A stretch of 28,358 nt of DNA from a virus. Under the pieces are notes generated by a model, which saw only the letters and a list, made by a program, of their open reading frames with translations, was not told the DNA's origin and did no database searches. The number at the start of each line of letters is the position of its first letter. Positions within the stretch are counted from its first letter, which is position 1. A program made the translations under genes and the position numbers. Location of the stretch: positions 1 through 28,358 of IMG/VR virus record IMGVR_UViG_3300027749_000405. One strand, given 5' to 3'. Below, in pieces: positions 4,895 to 14,323 of this stretch.

Positions 4895-5088
4895 ACGAAA
4901 TACAGGTACTTGAACACTTGAACGAGAAACTCGCTCAACGTCGAACTGAATTAGCTGAGTCTTTGGCAGAGGGGGGAGTCGCCGACTTTCCTGCTTACCG
5001 GGAACTGTGCGGAGTTATCCGAGGTCTCCTGACCGCACAGGTAGAAATAGGTGACCTCGTGCGTATCTTGAAAGCTAACCATGACTGA
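4891..5088 (+). CDS. Small helical protein of unknown function
   Basis: A 65-residue, probably all-helical protein (Leu/Glu/Arg-rich, with heptad-like spacing in residues 6-25). Its ATG overlaps the portal stop (ATGA at 4891) and its stop overlaps the next start (ATGACTGA), so it is locked into the portal/co-chaperonin operon by two coupling junctions. No catalytic motif, cysteine pair or membrane segment is visible. A short helical protein here could be a portal- or prohead-associated accessory, but that is only inferred from position. Confidence 0.75.
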   Translation: MNEIQVLEHLNEKLAQRRTELAESLAEGGVADFPAYRELCGVIRGLLTAQVEIGDLVRILKANHD

Positions 5089-5479
5089 CTTTGATGTTCA
5101 AGCCGTTGACCTGTCGGGGGTACTAAATACCACCGCTGAGCAAAAGGCAAGCCAAATCCCCGAGCCGGTGACGTATCACATCCTGTGTATGTTGCCTAAG
5201 GCAGATGAGGAGATTGGTAAGACCGGGTTGATTAAGACCTCGACCATGATGCACCATGAGGAGCTCCTGTCTCCCGTGTTGTTTGTGGCCAAGATCGGCC
5301 CCGACGCGTTTCCTAAAGACAAATTCCCCAACGGCCCTAGCTGCAAGGTGGGAGACTTTATCTTGACGCGGCCCAACACCGGTACCCGGATGAAAATCCA
5401 CGGCACCGAGTGGCGGCTCATTAACGACGATTCTGTTGAGGCGGTTGTGCAAGACCCTCGCGGTATCCAACGTCCTTAA
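5081..5479 (+). CDS. GroES-like (Cpn10-fold) co-chaperonin
   Basis: Probable phage co-chaperonin that caps host GroEL during folding of virion proteins, comparable in role to T4 gp31. The 132-residue protein follows the Cpn10 strand pattern: a Pro-containing first strand around residues 32-41, then K-T-G-L-I at 47-51 in the place where GroES has G-G-I, a polar 52-62 stretch where the GroEL-binding mobile loop would lie, V-L-F-V-A-K-I-G-P-D-A-F at 66-77 (GroES has V-V-A-V-G), C-K-V-G-D-F-I-L at 88-95 (GroES has V-K-x-G-D), and a final H-G-T-E-W-R-L-I-N-D-D-S-V-E-A-V-V at 107-123. It lies between portal and scaffold, overlapping its upstream neighbour by eight bases. No GroEL partner is in the window. 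The alternative is an unrelated beta-barrel structural protein. Confidence 0.68.
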   Translation: MTDFDVQAVDLSGVLNTTAEQKASQIPEPVTYHILCMLPKADEEIGKTGLIKTSTMMHHEELLSPVLFVAKIGPDAFPKDKFPNGPSCKVGDFILTRPNTGTRMKIHGTEWRLINDDSVEAVVQDPRGIQRP

Positions 5480-7754: not shown

Positions 7755-8666
7755 ATGGCTATTTCACGCGCACAACTACTTAAAGAGTTGCTCCCCGGTC
7801 TGAATGCATTGTTCGGTCTGGAGTACGCCAAATACGGCGAAGAGCACAAGGAAATCTACGACACCGAAACTTCGGAACGTAGCTTTGAAGAGGAAACCAA
7901 GCTGTCTGGCTTCTCCGCCGCTCCGGTGAAGAACGAGGGCTCTGCCATTGCTTATGACAATGCGCAGGAAGCTTGGACTGCACGTTACAACCACGAAACC
8001 ATTGCGATGGGCTTTTCCATCACTGAGGAAGCTGTGGAAGATAACTTGTACGATAGCCTCTCCAGCCGCTACACCAAGGCTTTGGCCCGTGGTATGGCTT
8101 ACACCAAGCAAGTCAAGGCTGCTTACGTCCTGAACAACGCATTTGCATCAAACGTAACTTACGGTGATGGCGTTTCGTTGTGCTCGACTGCGCACCCCTT
8201 GGTTTCTGGTGGCACCAACAGCAACCGTCCATCTACCGGCGCTGACCTGAATGAAACCTCGTTGGAAAACGCTGTTATTCAGATCGCCGCTTGGACAGAC
8301 GAGCGCAGCTTGCTGATTGCAGCTAAGCCCAAGAAGCTGATTGTTCCCCCAAGCCTGATGTTCGTCGCTACCCGCCTGCTGGAAACAGAACTGCGCGTTG
8401 GTACCACCGACAACGACATCAATGCCTTGAAGAACAATGGCTCCATCCCTGAAGGTTACTCTGTCAACCACTTCTTGACCGACACAAACGGTTGGTTCCT
8501 GTTGACTGACGTACCTAACGGCTTGAAGCACTTTGTCCGTACTCCGCTGGCCAACAGTATGGACGGCGACTTCGATACCGGCAACGTCCGCTACAAGGCC
8601 CGCGAGCGTTACAGCTTCGGCGTGTCTGACCCACTAGGCATCTTCGGATCGCCCGGTTCGTCCTAA
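7755..8666 (+). CDS. Major capsid protein, Mu gpT-like (HK97 fold)
   Basis: Forms the icosahedral shell. The 303-residue protein resembles the gpT-type major head subunit of Mu-like phages: an N-terminal helical arm (A-Q-L-L-K-E-L-L-P-G-L-N-A-L-F), an E-loop-like acidic segment with E-T-S-E-R-S-F-E-E-E-T-K-L-S-G-F, then the family signature around residues 108-155 (A-L-A-R-G-M-A-Y-T-K-Q-V-K-A-A-Y-V-L-N-N-A-F followed by D-G-V-S-L-C-S-T-A-H-P-L) and L-I-V-P-P-S-L near 195. There is no separate protease domain. It has a strong AAGGAG-type site, and its codons look GC-rich and favoured, as expected for the most abundant protein. It is followed by the strongest terminator in the window, which closes the head operon. 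Confidence 0.9.
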   Translation: MAISRAQLLKELLPGLNALFGLEYAKYGEEHKEIYDTETSERSFEEETKLSGFSAAPVKNEGSAIAYDNAQEAWTARYNHETIAMGFSITEEAVEDNLYDSLSSRYTKALARGMAYTKQVKAAYVLNNAFASNVTYGDGVSLCSTAHPLVSGGTNSNRPSTGADLNETSLENAVIQIAAWTDERSLLIAAKPKKLIVPPSLMFVATRLLETELRVGTTDNDINALKNNGSIPEGYSVNHFLTDTNGWFLLTDVPNGLKHFVRTPLANSMDGDFDTGNVRYKARERYSFGVSDPLGIFGSPGSS

Positions 8667-9423: not shown

Positions 9424-9717
9424 ATGCAACAAACTGATGTAAAAAGTGCGCACTTGAGCACAGCGGGTTCTTATTATGTTGGGCGCGCACGCCTTAAAGG
9501 TATTGTGGTCAGTCCTAAAGCAAGCACGGCAGCAACATTTGAAATTAGAGATGGTAGCGCTACCGGAGCCATTCTGTACACAATGGATATAGCAAGCCTT
9601 GGAACCCCAAATACGGTTAGCATATTTGTTCCCGGTGAGGGCATCTTGGCTTCTACTGGGTTGTATTTAACAACAAGTGTTGGTACGGTAACAGGTATCA
9701 CAATATTCTATGGCTAA
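9424..9717 (+). CDS. Small beta-rich phage protein
   Basis: A 97-residue protein with an AGGAG site and ATG. Its strands (G-I-V-V-S-P-K, T-F-E-I-R-D-G, G-A-I-L-Y-T-M-D-I-A, T-V-S-I-F-V-P-G-E-G-I) suggest one small beta-sandwich of the kind used as decoration or fibre modules. Its last residues, T-T-S-V-G-T-V-T, are encoded by a 17-base stretch (9670-9686) that recurs exactly near the end of the zinc-ribbon gene at 13171-13187. Its 3' end overlaps the next gene by eight bases. Specific function not recognised. Confidence 0.65.
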   Translation: MQQTDVKSAHLSTAGSYYVGRARLKGIVVSPKASTAATFEIRDGSATGAILYTMDIASLGTPNTVSIFVPGEGILASTGLYLTTSVGTVTGITIFYG

Positions 9718-9967
9718 GAAAAAAGGCCCGGTTCTTTCGGTCGGTCGTGGCGAGAAGCTACCCGTCTCCAAAGGGGCGGGGTTGACTGCCAAGGGCCGTG
9801 CTAAGTACAACGCAGCAACAGGTAGTAATCTGAAAGCTCCCCAGCCGCAGGGCGGCGCACGCAAGAACTCATTTTGTGCGCGGATGTCTGGTATGCCGGG
9901 GCCGATGAAAGATGAAAAAGGTAAGCCCACCCGCAAGGCGGCTTCCTTAGCTAGATGGAAATGCTGA
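9710..9967 (+). CDS. Conserved small basic phage protein (DUF6321-like)
   Basis: An 85-residue, strongly basic protein with the pattern G-L-T-A-K-G-R-A-K-Y-N then N-L-K-A-P-Q, R-K-N-S-F-C-A-R-M-S-G-M, and a C terminus R-K-A-A-S-L-A-R-W-K-C. I recognise this order as a small uncharacterised family widespread in aquatic phages, which I associate with DUF6321; the domain number is from memory. The high Lys/Arg content suggests nucleic-acid contact or an internal head role, but no function is known to me. It ends in Cys, like the three other proteins of this cluster that end at 10653, 11354 and 11868. The start overlaps the preceding gene, and the stop is followed by the TGATATG junction also seen at 11352 and 11866. 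Confidence 0.72.
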   Translation: MAKKKGPVLSVGRGEKLPVSKGAGLTAKGRAKYNAATGSNLKAPQPQGGARKNSFCARMSGMPGPMKDEKGKPTRKAASLARWKC

Positions 9968-9968
9968 T

Positions 9969-10163
9969 ATGAACGACGCACACGACGCAAAAACAATGGC
10001 TGATGGCGCTGCCGTAATAATGGGCCTTGGTGGTTTTTTAGGATGGATGACTCCCGTGGTAACACTTATTGGCGGCGTTTTTACAATTATTTGGATGGGT
10101 ATTCGCATTTGGGAAACCGATACCGTACAGCGGTGGTTTAAAGACGATGCCATCGACAAGTAA
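9969..10163 (+). CDS. Small membrane protein, holin-like
   Basis: A 64-residue protein with one long hydrophobic region at about residues 16-43, possibly two short spans (I-M-G-L-G-G-F-L-G-W-M then T-L-I-G-G-V-F-T-I-I-W-M-G-I-R-I-W), and a polar C-terminal tail E-T-D-T-V-Q-R-W-F-K-D-D. This layout resembles small phage membrane proteins often called holins. It lies far from the endolysin at 21742, so a lysis role is uncertain; a head or entry role is also possible. The stop precedes the ATG by one base upstream, and its 3' end overlaps the next gene by 17 bases. Confidence 0.6.
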   Translation: MNDAHDAKTMADGAAVIMGLGGFLGWMTPVVTLIGGVFTIIWMGIRIWETDTVQRWFKDDAIDK

Positions 10164-10653
10164 AAAACAACACAATTTCATGGCGGCAATAGCGCACAGC
10201 CCTGCGTTTGCCAAAAAAGTAGGAGTTCCACAATCTGTGGGGCAAGACTTTAATACAGCCGACAAGGGCCGTAAATTTTCAAAAGGTGGAAGTATGGCTA
10301 CTAAAGGTGTAAACCCGTTTGCAAAATTCGAGAAGTCCGGTAAGGACGTAGAGAAAAAAGGCATGGGCAAAGAAGGCTCCAAGAAAGAGGAAGCCTTTGA
10401 CAAAACTCAAATGGGCATGAAACGTGGCGGCATGGCCAAAATGGCTGAAGGCGGCGCAACTGACATGGACCAAGACAAGGCCATGGTCAAGAAAGCGTTT
10501 AAGCAGCACGATATGCAAGAGCACAAAGGTGGCAAGGGCACGTCCTTGAAGTTGGCCAAAGGCGGCGCGTTCCGTTCCTCGGCTAACGGTATTGCCTCCA
10601 AAGGCAAGACCAAAGGCACCCAAATCGTCATGAAGAAAGGCGGGAAGTGCTAA
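10147..10653 (+). CDS. Basic Gly/Lys-rich conserved phage protein with GIAxKGKT tail
   Basis: A 168-residue protein. ATG 10147 is chosen because the N terminus M-P-S-T-S-K-K-Q-H-N-F-M-A-A-I-A-H-S-P is a pattern I recognise from related phage proteins; the frame is open further up to 10069, but that part only shadows the membrane gene. The N-terminal 45 residues (A-F-A-K-K-V-G-V-P-Q-S-V-G) look like a compact basic domain. The rest is low-complexity Lys/Gly/Met with several G-G pairs. Near the C terminus stands ANGIASKGKTKG (residues 146-157), a variant of the module shared with neighbouring genes, and the last residue is Cys. The stop overlaps the next ATG (TAATG). Function unknown; an internal-head or DNA-binding role is inferred from charge only. 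Confidence 0.72.
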   Translation: MPSTSKKQHNFMAAIAHSPAFAKKVGVPQSVGQDFNTADKGRKFSKGGSMATKGVNPFAKFEKSGKDVEKKGMGKEGSKKEEAFDKTQMGMKRGGMAKMAEGGATDMDQDKAMVKKAFKQHDMQEHKGGKGTSLKLAKGGAFRSSANGIASKGKTKGTQIVMKKGGKC

Positions 10654-11354
10654 TGTCTAAACACAAAGTCAAACGCTACGACGGCGAAGATGACTCCATG
10701 GTTGAGCCCGATGCTATGGAGCAAGCTAATCAAGGTGAAAACCTTGATACAGAAGCTGGCCCTAAAGCGGTAAACATGCCCCGCCGTCCCATTAGCCGCA
10801 CTCCTGTAGCAGCACCTCGTAAAGTTTCCCTTGATGACCGCGCTAAACGGCCTTCACTGGCGGGGGCTACCCGTACGTATGAAAACTACGGGAATGAAGG
10901 TCGCGGGTCTAAAGCACCTATGGTTGGTATTCGCTCATCTCAAGCAGATATGAACCGCGCGGTAGACGCAATAACCGGTGGAGCAGGTAGCGCAGCGGGT
11001 ATAGGTATTAAAGGCATTGCAGCCGCTGCTCGGAATTTAGCCCGTAGTGGCGCTAAAGAAGCCCCTCCCATGGTTAGCGCAGCCCGTGGTGCATTGGATC
11101 GCGCAATGTCTGCGGAACGGGCGTCACCAAAGACCGGCGATATGGCCAAATTTAGCGATGCTTTAAAAGCGGCTAAGAAAGGCCCCAAGGGCTCGCTAGG
11201 GCGTGAAGCTATCCTTAGAGGCGACACCATGGACGAATTTGGTAGCGCTATGAAGCGCGGCGGCTCGGTTAAGAAGATGGCTTCTGGCGGTTCAGTATCC
11301 AGTCGTGCTGATGGCATTGCCCAGCGTGGCAAAACCCGTGGAAAGATGTGCTGA
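10653..11354 (+). CDS. Unknown protein with C-terminal RADGIAQRGKTRGKMC module
   Basis: A 233-residue protein. I chose ATG 10653, which overlaps the previous stop, over the GTG six bases upstream. The N-terminal half is polar and disordered-looking, with acidic residues first and basic later. The middle (about residues 105-150) is Ala/Gly-rich and helical (A-G-S-A-A-G-I-G-I-K-G-I-A-A-A-A). The C terminus has K-R-G-G-S-V-K-K-M-A-S-G-G-S-V followed by SSRADGIAQRGKTRGKMC at 216-233. That last module is nearly identical to the end of the next protein. No enzyme motif was found. It belongs to a set of proteins with unrelated bodies and the same tail, suggesting the tail is a shared address or binding tag. 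Confidence 0.72.
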   Translation: MSKHKVKRYDGEDDSMVEPDAMEQANQGENLDTEAGPKAVNMPRRPISRTPVAAPRKVSLDDRAKRPSLAGATRTYENYGNEGRGSKAPMVGIRSSQADMNRAVDAITGGAGSAAGIGIKGIAAAARNLARSGAKEAPPMVSAARGALDRAMSAERASPKTGDMAKFSDALKAAKKGPKGSLGREAILRGDTMDEFGSAMKRGGSVKKMASGGSVSSRADGIAQRGKTRGKMC

Positions 11355-11358
11355 TATG
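11328..11358 (+). repeat. 31-bp direct repeat, copy 1
   Basis: Identical to 11842-11872. It covers the last codons of the 233-aa gene, its stop, and the start codon of the next gene. The two copies are 514 bases apart. Confidence 0.93.
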
Positions 11359-11868
11359 GCAAACTACAAACGCAAAATGGGCATTGAAGAGGATAAAGAC
11401 TCTTCAGCATATTGGCGGGAAAAAGACGCACGTCAATTTAATAAGCCGAGTAAGTACGACAGCATCCGTCCATCTGGTGAAGAAGCCCGTTTAAGCGACC
11501 AAAAAGTACGTGGACTAAAACAAGCGGCTGCGGGCGCAGCTATGGCTCCTGCTGGCGTTGCATTATCAACCCTCGCAGGTAGCAGCCGCGATGGCGCTAA
11601 CAAAGGGCCAATTGGCGCTGGCGTAGACTACCTTGCAGGTATGCCTTCTCGTGCAATAGATGCGGTAAAAGGCGCAGGTGAGTTTATTGGTAGTGGAGTT
11701 AGCCAATACAAAAAAGCTAAAGACGAAGAAGCAGATTTGGATCGGGAACTTGATAGCCAAACAAAACGTGAAGCTCGGGGCATGGCTAAAGGCGGAAAAG
11801 TATCCAGTGCGTCCAGCCGTGCTGACGGTATCGCATCGCGGGGCAAAACCCGTGGAAAGATGTGCTGA
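11356..11868 (+). CDS. Unknown protein with C-terminal RADGIASRGKTRGKMC module
   Basis: A 170-residue protein starting one base after the preceding stop. The frame is open upstream to 11305, but that part only shadows the previous gene. The N terminus is charged (K-R-K-M-G-I-E-E-D-K-D). Residues 50-85 contain an Ala/Gly-rich helical, possibly membrane-seeking stretch (A-A-A-G-A-A-M-A-P-A-G-V-A-L-S-T-L-A), then G-A-G-V-D-Y-L-A-G-M, then a charged helix. It ends with SSRADGIASRGKTRGKMC (153-170), differing from its neighbour's tail at one position. The whole gene is framed by the two 31-bp repeats, so it may be a gained or losable cassette. Function unknown. Confidence 0.72.
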   Translation: MANYKRKMGIEEDKDSSAYWREKDARQFNKPSKYDSIRPSGEEARLSDQKVRGLKQAAAGAAMAPAGVALSTLAGSSRDGANKGPIGAGVDYLAGMPSRAIDAVKGAGEFIGSGVSQYKKAKDEEADLDRELDSQTKREARGMAKGGKVSSASSRADGIASRGKTRGKMC

Positions 11869-11872
11869 TATG
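11842..11872 (+). repeat. 31-bp direct repeat, copy 2
   Basis: Second perfect copy of 11328-11358, again spanning the shared protein tail, the stop codon and the next gene's ATG. Recombination between the copies would remove exactly one gene and leave both neighbours in frame. Confidence 0.93.
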
Positions 11873-12103
11873 AGAGCAAGTCGCGGTATGGGGGCCATCA
11901 TGCCCTCCAAGATGCCTAGCGGTAGCCGCAAAGCACGCCGCGATGACACTAACTTCACGCAGTACGCTGAAGGCGGACAAGTAGGCCTGTACGCAAACAT
12001 CAACGCAAAGCGCAAGCGGGGCGCTAAAATGCGTAAAGCGGGGGCCAAAGGTGCTCCTACTGACCAAGCGTTTATTGACTCGGCCAAAACAGCAAAGAAG
12101 TAA
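11870..12103 (+). CDS. Small very basic conserved phage protein
   Basis: A 77-residue protein; the start is at 11870 after the preceding stop, not at the longer open frame from 11678. The pattern is M-R-A-S-R-G-M-G-A-I-M-P-S-K-M-P, R-R-D-D-T-N-F, E-G-G-Q-V-G-L-Y-A-N-I, K-R-K-R, and K-M-R-K-A-G-A-K-G-A-P-T-D-Q-A-F. I recognise this as a recurrent uncharacterised family in environmental phage genomes, always small and basic. It lacks the RGKTRG tail but shares the aromatic-E-G-G-x-V element with its neighbours. It precedes the neck adaptor. A nucleic-acid or capsid-interior role is possible from charge; nothing more can be said. Confidence 0.75.
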   Translation: MRASRGMGAIMPSKMPSGSRKARRDDTNFTQYAEGGQVGLYANINAKRKRGAKMRKAGAKGAPTDQAFIDSAKTAKK

Positions 12104-12106
12104 ACC

Positions 12107-12820
12107 ATGACCGTCTCCGGCACCACAGCTTTCAACCTTGACTTCACAGAGATTGCTGAAGAAGCGTTTGAGCGGGCGGGCCGGGAGATGCGTACCGGTT
12201 ACGACCTGCGTACTGCGCGTCGGTCATTCAACCTCATGACGATTGAGTGGCAGAACAAGGGCATAAACATGTGGACTATTGATGAGGGATACATCGACCT
12301 CATCCAAGGGCAAGCCACCTATGACCTGCCAGCAGACACTATTGACTTGTTGGAGCATGTGATTCGTACTGGCCAAGGCAGCGTATCTACGCAATCTGAC
12401 CTAACTATCACGCGTATCAGCGTCTCAACCTACGCCACAATCCCCAACAAGCTTCAACAAGCCCGCCCCATTCAAGTCTGGATTGAGCGTCTAAGGGATA
12501 ACCCTAGGATTACCGTGTGGCCAGTTCCCGAGCAAGGCACGGAGGCCAGCCCGTATTACATATTCAAATACTGGCGTCTGCGCCGCATTGATGATGCGGG
12601 TACTGGGGTGAACACCGCCGATATGAACTTCCGCTTCCTACCCGCCGCAACTGCGGGGTTGGCGTACCACATTGGGTTGAAGCTTCCTGAGGCTACGGAT
12701 CGAATTCCTATGCTCAAGCAGGTATATGACGAGTCCTTTGAGCTAGCCGCTGGAGAAGACCGCGAGAAAGCCGCCATTCGGTTTGTACCGCGTCAAATGT
12801 TTATTGGCGGGGGAACGTAA
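12107..12820 (+). CDS. Head-tail adaptor, P22 gp4-like
   Basis: A 237-residue protein likely to bind the portal ring after packaging and seal or extend the neck, like P22 gp4 (tail accessory factor) and T7 gp11. Supporting features are an N-terminal helical hairpin with E-I-A-E-E-A-F-E-R-A-G-R-E-M-R-T-G-Y-D-L, then R-R-S-F-N-L-M-T-I-E-W-Q-N-K-G-I-N-M-W-T, a beta part with Y-D-L-P-A-D-T-I-D-L-L-E, and a C-terminal helical part (L-A-Y-H-I-G-L-K-L-P). The length fits. Its stop overlaps the start of the zinc-ribbon gene (TAATG). Residual doubt concerns which neck layer it forms. Confidence 0.8.
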   Translation: MTVSGTTAFNLDFTEIAEEAFERAGREMRTGYDLRTARRSFNLMTIEWQNKGINMWTIDEGYIDLIQGQATYDLPADTIDLLEHVIRTGQGSVSTQSDLTITRISVSTYATIPNKLQQARPIQVWIERLRDNPRITVWPVPEQGTEASPYYIFKYWRLRRIDDAGTGVNTADMNFRFLPAATAGLAYHIGLKLPEATDRIPMLKQVYDESFELAAGEDREKAAIRFVPRQMFIGGGT

Positions 12821-13209
12821 TGAGCAACCGGTTCGCTTCCGGCAAAAACAGCATTGCGGAGTGCGACCGTTGCGGACAGCGGTACAAACTCAAGCAACTT
12901 CGCAAGGAAGTTAAGAAGACTAAGACGTACAATCTCTTGGTCTGCACGACGTGCTGGGACCCTGACCAGCCGCAGTTGCAACTAGGTATGTTTCCTGTGG
13001 ATGACCCACAAGCAGTGCGGGAACCGCGCAGGGACTCTACCTATGTGCAAGCTGGAGTTAATGTGGCGGGGTTTCCTACTGGGGGCTCCCGAGATATTCA
13101 ATGGGGATGGAGCCCGATTGGCGGGTCATCCAATTTTGATGCGGTACTTACCCCAAATTACTTGGTAGGTACAACAAGTGTTGGTACAGTAACCGTAACG
13201 GTTTCATAG
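12820..13209 (+). CDS. Zinc-ribbon phage protein
   Basis: A 129-residue protein with C15-x2-C18 (CDRC) and C42-x2-C45 (CTTC), 23 residues apart, an excellent four-Cys zinc ribbon. The linker is basic (K-L-K-Q-L-R-K-E-V-K-K-T-K). It continues with W-D-P-D-Q-P-Q-L-Q-L-G-M-F-P-V-D-D-P-Q, a pattern I recognise beside neck adaptors in other aquatic phages. The last 25 residues are a different, Thr/Val-rich beta tail ending near T-T-S-V-G-T-V-T, whose DNA matches the end of the gene at 9424 and may be a swapped module. It might be a structural neck or tail component stabilised by zinc, or bind nucleic acid; the sequence does not decide. Confidence 0.75.
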   Translation: MSNRFASGKNSIAECDRCGQRYKLKQLRKEVKKTKTYNLLVCTTCWDPDQPQLQLGMFPVDDPQAVREPRRDSTYVQAGVNVAGFPTGGSRDIQWGWSPIGGSSNFDAVLTPNYLVGTTSVGTVTVTVS

Positions 13210-13218
13210 GAGTTAATC

Positions 13219-13404
13219 ATGGCGTATACACAATCCGCAGACGGCGTTGCCAAAAAAGGTAAAACGGATGTCAAGGTCTTCCCTAACAGCGGCCCCACTG
13301 CGGGCTCAACTGCTGGGGGCAAGAAAACCTCTGGCGTCACTGGCCAAGCTATGCGCGCCGTTGGCCGTAACATGGCCCGCGTCATGAACCAAAAGCGAGG
13401 TTAA
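13219..13404 (+). CDS. Small basic protein with N-terminal ADGVAKKGKT module
   Basis: A 61-residue basic protein with an AGGAG site. Residues 7-16 read ADGVAKKGKT, clearly the same module as the C-terminal tails at 10582, 11298 and 11812, but here at the N terminus. Then come D-V-K-V-F-P-N-S-G, a Gly/Thr spacer and a basic helix (A-M-R-A-V-G-R-N-M-A-R-V-M-N-Q-K-R-G). The change of end suggests a portable interaction motif rather than a fixed domain. No known function. It lies one base before the next gene. Confidence 0.68.
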   Translation: MAYTQSADGVAKKGKTDVKVFPNSGPTAGSTAGGKKTSGVTGQAMRAVGRNMARVMNQKRG

Positions 13405-13405
13405 T

Positions 13406-13669
13406 ATGGCTTACAGCATGAAACAGGGTGGGAAAGAAGTCGGCCCCGCCAGCACCTACGCCAAGCCGCATACCATGTCCGGCAAGGCTGTAACGGTAGA
13501 AACCAATCCCGGTAAGGAACCAAACCGCAGCAAGGCGGACACCTACGATATGAGTGTTGGGGGCATCAGCAAATCTGCTGGTGACGAAGCTATCAAAACT
13601 GATGGCATCAAAGTCCGAGGTACTGGCGCGGCGACTAAAGGTTTGATGGCCCGAGGCCCGATGGCATAA
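13406..13669 (+). CDS. Small conserved phage protein ending RGTGAATKG-type
   Basis: An 87-residue protein. The first half is polar (M-K-Q-G-G-K-E-V-G-P-A-S-T-Y-A-K-P). The last 25 residues read I-K-T-D-G-I-K-V-R-G-T-G-A-A-T-K-G followed by L-M-A-R-G-P-M-A, a C-terminal pattern I recall from many small phage proteins. The D-G-I-K-V-R-G part is a looser version of the D-G-I-A-x-R-G module of the neighbours. Gly-rich and positively charged; no enzyme motif. It precedes the second adaptor. Function unknown. Confidence 0.7.
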   Translation: MAYSMKQGGKEVGPASTYAKPHTMSGKAVTVETNPGKEPNRSKADTYDMSVGGISKSAGDEAIKTDGIKVRGTGAATKGLMARGPMA

Positions 13670-13672
13670 GCT

Positions 13673-14323
13673 ATGAACTACACTGAGCTGTGCACTAACA
13701 TCGCTGACATCTGTGAAAACACGTTCACGGCGGATGAGTACGCCATGTTCACAAAACAGACTGAGCAGCGTATATACAACTCGGTTCAGCTAGCTAACTT
13801 GCGCAAAAACCAGACTGGGGTGCTTACAGCCAACAACAAGTACTTGTCTTGCCCCGATGATTTCCTGTCAACCTACTCCCTTGCGGTCGTTGACGCTTCT
13901 GGCAACTACTCGTACCCGTTGAACAAGGACGTGAACTTCATACGTGAAGCGTACCCCAACCCAACGTCTACCGGGCTGCCTAAGCACTATGCTATTTTTG
14001 GCCCTCAATCGTCGGTGGTAACGGAATTATCGTTTATCTTGGGCCCCACGCCCGATACTACCTATACGGTAGAGCTGCACTATTACTACTACCCAGAGTC
14101 CATTGTGACGGCAGGTACTACATGGCTCGGGGATAACTTTGACTCGGCGCTACTGAATGGTGCCTTGGTTGAAGCCATCCGGTTCATGAAAGGTGAGCAG
14201 GACTTGGTTGCGTTGTACCAAAACATGTACGTACAAGCGATTGCACTTCTTAAGAATTTGGGTGACGGCAAGCAACGTATGGACGCGTACCGTGACGGTC
14301 AAGTTAGGACGGCGGTTGCATGA
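13673..14323 (+). CDS. Neck / tail adaptor protein
   Basis: A 216-residue protein resembling the phage adaptor family found after gp4-like proteins. It has an N-terminal helical pair (Y-T-E-L-C-T-N-I-A-D-I-C-E-N, then T-E-Q-R-I-Y-N-S-V-Q-L-A-N-L-R-K-N), a beta part with Y-L-S-C-P-D-D-F-L-S-T-Y-S-L-A-V-V-D, the segment N-K-D-V-N-F-I-R-E-A-Y-P, V-E-L-H-Y-Y-Y-Y-P-E-S-I near 142, and a C-terminal helix (L-V-E-A-I-R-F-M-K-G). This architecture matches neck connector proteins that join the portal/adaptor ring to the tail hub. The exact layer is inferred. Its stop overlaps the next ATG (ATGA). Confidence 0.7.
   Translation: MNYTELCTNIADICENTFTADEYAMFTKQTEQRIYNSVQLANLRKNQTGVLTANNKYLSCPDDFLSTYSLAVVDASGNYSYPLNKDVNFIREAYPNPTSTGLPKHYAIFGPQSSVVTELSFILGPTPDTTYTVELHYYYYPESIVTAGTTWLGDNFDSALLNGALVEAIRFMKGEQDLVALYQNMYVQAIALLKNLGDGKQRMDAYRDGQVRTAVA

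Follow-up and report, generated by a model that had tools for sequence, protein, structure and literature searches.

The window analysed here, a virus fragment of 28,358 bases from IMG/VR, carries genes for a terminase, a portal, a GroES-like protein, a protein in the scaffold position, a capsid protein and two SU10-type adaptors. Judged by capsid and adaptor, its closest named phages are Planktothrix phage Pag-Yong1, Pelagibacter phage HTVC023P, the metagenome-assembled phage DSL-LC04 and Roseobacter phages CRP-901 and CRP-902. The GroES-like co-chaperonin gene (5081-5479) lies amid the head genes. From the capsid gene to the second adaptor the window contains the following features:

7755..8666, forward strand: major capsid protein, the upstream border of the cassette
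9710..9967, forward strand: DUF6321 protein, untagged in the window; the same domain is tagged in some relatives (e.g. L115)
10147..10653, forward strand: ORF A, 168 amino acids, net charge +21, with an N-terminal module (phiKZ gp165.1-like, phrog_16759), a basic low-complexity middle and a long-form tag near the C terminus; homologues stand at the equivalent place in most related loci
10582..10650, forward strand: long-form tag of ORF A, ANGIASKGKTKGTQIVMKKGGKC, followed by the stop codon
10653..11354, forward strand: ORF B, 233 amino acids, net charge +16; its ATG overlaps the stop codon of ORF A
11298..11351, forward strand: short-form tag of ORF B, SSRADGIAQRGKTRGKMC, followed by the stop codon
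11356..11868, forward strand: ORF C, 170 amino acids, net charge +9, a helical body with a glycine-rich hydrophobic stretch
11812..11865, forward strand: short-form tag of ORF C, SSRADGIASRGKTRGKMC, followed by the stop codon
11870..12103, forward strand: p3, 77 amino acids, basic, untagged, phrog_16028-like; the last cassette gene in most loci
12107..12820, forward strand: neck adaptor 1 (SU10_adaptor), the downstream border of the cassette
13219..13404, forward strand: ORF D, 61 amino acids, with an N-terminal tag copy, ADGVAKKGKT, at 13237-13266
13406..13669, forward strand: ORF E, 87 amino acids, with a conserved C terminus, TDGIKVRGTGAATKGLMARGPMA, that resembles the second tag allele
13673..14323, forward strand: neck adaptor 2 (SU10_adaptor)

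This order recurs among relatives with some variation, as capsid, (cement-like), DUF6321, ORF A type, one to four tagged genes and p3, followed downstream by adaptor 1, a zinc protein, ORF D, ORF E and adaptor 2. The p3 protein, another common small basic phage protein, starts with MRASRGMGAIMPSKMP, which is recurrent in relatives, and often ends in GQWSARKAQLLAKKYKAxGGGYKD. The protein between the adaptors (12820-13209) is zinc-ribbon-like (CDRC...CTTC), and its HTVC023P counterpart has the cysteines replaced (SDRSG). Sequences related to the DUF6321 protein occur in 262 phage records, mainly of cyanophages, and a literature search did not find DUF6321. Comparison of the capsid, adaptor and g8847 proteins with solved structures gave no match, and a search for RNA families was negative.

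The initial annotation had proposed that one short module is reused on five neighbouring small proteins, and all five of the strings it named are present at their coordinates. The strict motif matches the DNA of the window at three places (10588, 11313 and 11827), where shuffles predict 0.01, and none of 100 shuffles reached three. ORFs B and C stop exactly three residues past the tag core. The copy in ORF A does not stand at the extreme end, since 11 residues (TQIVMKKGGKC) trail the core; it belongs to a recurrent 'long' subclass. At the N terminus of ORF D the copy seems to be a genuine homologue, as relatives begin MAxTKSADGIAKKGKT, and in one related locus (L118) the same KGKTKGKNLGDSG string lies inside a tag near the C terminus. 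ORF E, in contrast, carries a different string; its conserved C terminus, T[ST]GIK[IV]RGTGAATKGxMARGPMA, resembles the RGxGxAxKG of the second allele.

The string G-I-A-Q-R-G-K-T also matches GxxxxGK[ST], the pattern of a Walker A nucleotide-binding loop, although only about five residues follow it. We rejected this P-loop reading, which is almost certainly wrong: the string is coil in both of the models described below, with no strand or helix predicted around it, Pag-Yong1 has GRT and others GHT at this place, and the second allele lacks the string altogether.

A degenerate DNA pattern for the tag matched at least 120 viral contigs. More than 100 related contigs are tagged, with one to five copies each, nearly always at the extreme C terminus and just upstream of the first neck-adaptor gene. 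Across this large family of aquatic phages the tag is 15-20 residues long and nearly identical from one protein to the next. Among the matches listed there are 236 motif occurrences in complete ORFs, of which 154 end exactly three residues past the core, and almost all the remainder lie 6-38 residues ahead of the stop. Since this sample was picked by tag DNA, the conservation of residues within it is partly by construction, while the position of the tag is unaffected. A second sample, in which a few contigs overlap the first, was therefore chosen via the adaptor protein; here the tag is present in 33 of the 53 loci having enough upstream DNA, and for 71 of 72 motifs the stop is no more than 28 residues away. 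Thus the tail is C-terminal in nearly all cases, ORF D-type proteins being the N-terminal exception, and it stays near the head and neck genes: among the matches listed, all 199 tagged genes share the strand of the adaptor and 194 of the 199 lie upstream of it. In 25 whole contigs of 15-87 kb all matches fall in one cluster, with none elsewhere, and a reversed control pattern gives none.

Outside viral contigs, a collection of 84,980 species genomes yielded two matching stretches, both from metagenome bins with the same phage genes on the contigs. Among isolates, Planktothrix phage Pag-Yong1 encodes one tagged protein, UMO75986.1, which ends in RDGCAKRGRTKGRFI; it was found by reading the interval and was missed by tblastn. 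A tblastn search of 50,697 phage records with the tag alone returned nothing, a negative that means little because the query is short and of low complexity, and no isolate turned up with P0002, P0003 or P0005 as queries. Several relatives (e.g. CRP-901 and HTVC027P) are without any such cassette, which is therefore accessory. In a literature search we did not find the tag strings in a phage context and met no description of the tag.

The initial annotation had described the tagged bodies as mutually unlike, which is correct within the window, while across relatives some short modules are held in common. The 146 class I bodies fall into 79 BLAST clusters, and not one of 64 within-genome pairs shares a cluster; in an unguided alignment of 75 diverse tagged proteins the tag alone stays conserved. 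Pfam, PHROGs, NCBIfam and PADLOC searches with these 75 proteins found no family running through the tag, only DUF6321 bodies, which occur both with and without the tag, and isolated weak matches. No recognisable host-takeover domain was found in the tagged bodies by family libraries. A mini-module, SFxxAFxxARxxGxxTFxWxGKxYTT, is common to many bodies (L015:410-994, L009:3890-4474); it is predicted as a helix and a beta hairpin (pLDDT of about 88), and in one model no other part is predicted with confidence. Of the 79 cluster representatives, 18 have a mildly hydrophobic stretch rich in Gly/Ala. In the two predicted models (pTM 0.45 and 0.22) the tag is coil of low confidence, and it is thus predicted to be disordered and to lie outside any folded domain, which goes against its being part of one ordinary folded domain.

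The tag exists in two forms. The first allele has the consensus SxxRADGIAx[KR]GKT[KR]G[KR]MV-stop, preceded by a [K/R]GG linker. In relatives without this motif, proteins at the equivalent operon position end in GGKVRGxG[IM]AxKGVRPxKMR or GGKVRGYGMARGGKVCKMR, giving a second allele with the consensus KGGKVRGxGIAxKGVRPxKMR-stop. A scan for the second allele matched at least 120 loci, 118 of the 120 listed having the same-lineage markers, and the tag is again C-terminal, in short and long versions. Intermediate forms also exist, such as GGKVRGDGIAKKGKTRGKFV in L323. Among the matches listed, 145 of 149 multi-tag loci hold one allele only, against a shuffled mean of 96 and maximum of 108, and four are mixed, L206 and L069 included. 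Mapped on the adaptor tree, the allele tracks it with some six changes; the coherence is thus in part ancestry and largely goes with phylogeny. The bodies within one genome are nevertheless unrelated, and homologous bodies occur with either allele, as in L006 versus L206 (53% over 155 residues) and in L007 and L021 versus L069, and ORF A-type bodies do so in unmixed loci (L315 and L195). A search for a receptor by way of protein columns that vary with the allele was confounded by lineage and pointed to no receptor.

These observations bear on the possibility that the tag is a nucleic-acid-binding tail, which would condense the packaged genome or ride with the DNA and would need no protein receptor. 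Such a role would be consistent with the strongly basic character of tags and bodies. However, the D, G, A and T positions recur and K and R exchange freely only at some positions, while the coherence of one allele per genome and the presence of either allele on the same body would not be expected of nonspecific binding. The tag is also restricted to one small gene cluster. We regard this explanation as quite unlikely.

Conservation of the tag appears to act on the protein. Tag identity is 0.746 within genomes and 0.670 between genomes (0 of 1000 permutations), and at identical tag residues of the same genome codons agree at 0.476 compared with 0.378 expected from codon usage. Agreement so near to chance argues for selection on the protein and against recent copying. 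The last glycine codon is the exception to this freedom of codon choice, being GGA or GGG in 93 of 128 class I tags (L004-L123) when the next ATG is at most 6 nt away, as against 7 of 25 with a distant next ATG, 6 of 79 long-form tags and 27 of 308 at the other two glycine positions. The tag end thus probably serves at the same time as Shine-Dalgarno sequence for the next gene; in the window (11298-11357), GGAAAG in the ORF B tag is probably that of ORF C. This accounts for the choice of codon at the last glycine and leaves the protein motif unexplained. The same bias could recommend another view, in which it is the nucleic acid that is conserved at the gene ends, as a module for ribosome binding and recombination that allows small genes to be reshuffled and yet remain translationally coupled. 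That view covers only a synonymous choice at the last codons, whereas long-form tags distant from the next gene keep the protein motif too, codon choice elsewhere is almost unconstrained and the alleles differ in sequence along their whole length; we consider it improbable.

A connection with virions comes from the body of ORF A, not from its tag. The N-terminal module matches phiKZ gp165.1 (74% over 43 residues). In its first 43-65 residues ORF A also matches the N terminus of CBB gp322, a protein detected by mass spectrometry in phage CBB virions with 30 peptides (PMC5259590); the families concerned are phrog_16759 and phrog_22033. The likeness to both proteins, of some 43-65 homologous residues, is thus confined to the module and separate from the C-terminal tag. 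In addition, the portal is strongly acidic, with a net charge of -47, and the tag carries about +4.7. These data may be consistent with a tag that attaches proteins to the surface of the neck, portal or capsid, where they would stay for good as minor structural components, such as plugs, cement or neck fillers, and would not be internal cargo. The position of the genes next to the capsid gene and a pair of SU10-like adaptors also fits this idea. Against it, bodies, copy number and presence differ widely among close relatives, and relatives like CRP-901 do without them, a variation that makes a fixed structural role unlikely.

The initial annotation had suggested that the tag looks like an address signal, and this is well supported by its terminal position, its independence of the bodies that carry it, its confinement to a single locus beside head and neck genes, the coherence of alleles within genomes, its predicted disorder and its conservation at the protein level; prohead loading or binding to portal, scaffold or DNA, its examples of such a role, are putative. 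We hypothesise, at about even confidence, that the tag is a docking signal at the C terminus, recognised by a single structural virion component, through which basic accessory proteins are captured in head assembly. A variable cassette of small, basic and mostly disordered accessory proteins would be made together with the capsid and neck proteins; a common receptor, which may be the capsid interior, the scaffold or the strongly acidic portal, would capture them during head assembly and so package them; and, once packaged, they would probably be delivered with the DNA, like the internal proteins of T4. To bring variable basic cargo into the virion seems the likeliest function of the tag. Recognition of the tag by a protein, loading into the virion and delivery into the host are steps that we infer, and the tag itself is apparently uncleaved. 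More tentatively, the system could amount to a dedicated cargo code of tailed phages: the loading tag at the C terminus, with alleles specific to each lineage and a receptor to match, would let unrelated host-takeover proteins be fitted into the virion as interchangeable cassettes, and would have a built-in ribosome-binding site for the next gene.

In T4 the internal proteins IPI-IPIII and Alt bear an N-terminal capsid targeting sequence (CTS), of which the first 10 residues of IPIII suffice and which is cut by gp21 (PMC9026906), and some of these proteins counter host defences (PMC9026906, PMC9391042). As in T4, a short terminal peptide linked to head assembly is common to small basic proteins with divergent bodies (PMC9026906), and the proteins are accessory and vary among relatives. 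The T4 peptide, however, is N-terminal and cleaved, whereas here it is C-terminal in nearly all cases, with two alleles and long and short forms. The S78 head protease (PF04586) was absent from 11 contigs, which may be incomplete, in a search with a working control; a search for the S77 protease (PF03420) was uninformative, its control giving no signal. We take the tag to work like the T4 CTS but, as it is C-terminal and S78 was not found in these contigs, not to be a member of that system. Encapsulin cargo-loading peptides are likewise short, conserved and C-terminal, on unrelated proteins encoded beside an HK97-type shell gene (PMC7355545), and the putative cargo here is also unrelated, with a shell gene nearby; the shell in this case is a tailed-phage capsid amid terminase, portal and adaptor genes, and the tag differs in sequence and is basic. 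In P1, the first 30 residues of DarB direct the protein or a reporter into the phage head (PMC9024508), a terminal peptide as head address, as is putatively the case here, although the DarB peptide is N-terminal on a 250 kDa protein and is not common to a set of small proteins.

Should the tag load cargo, it would single out hundreds of unannotated small proteins in abundant aquatic phages as candidate injected effectors, recognisable by sequence alone, and foreign proteins could be brought into phage particles with it as a compact C-terminal handle. It would also show that cargo addressing of the T4 style exists, in a different form, in a lineage of phages that is unrelated. Pag-Yong1, as an isolate with one tagged protein, allows the idea to be tested directly.

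Two further kinds of protein were seen in or beside the tagged set. An EF-hand/dockerin-like string (DLTGDGKITRADVLKGRG or DKNKDGKISGEDF) is present in tagged or adjacent small proteins (L048:6843-7208, L128:7644-8009 and L185 near 4372). At L320:10335-11537, L177:1029-2231 and L327:2988-4202 there are tagged proteins some 400 residues long whose N terminus is hydrophobic and rich in Ala, and these could be membrane-active ejection proteins.
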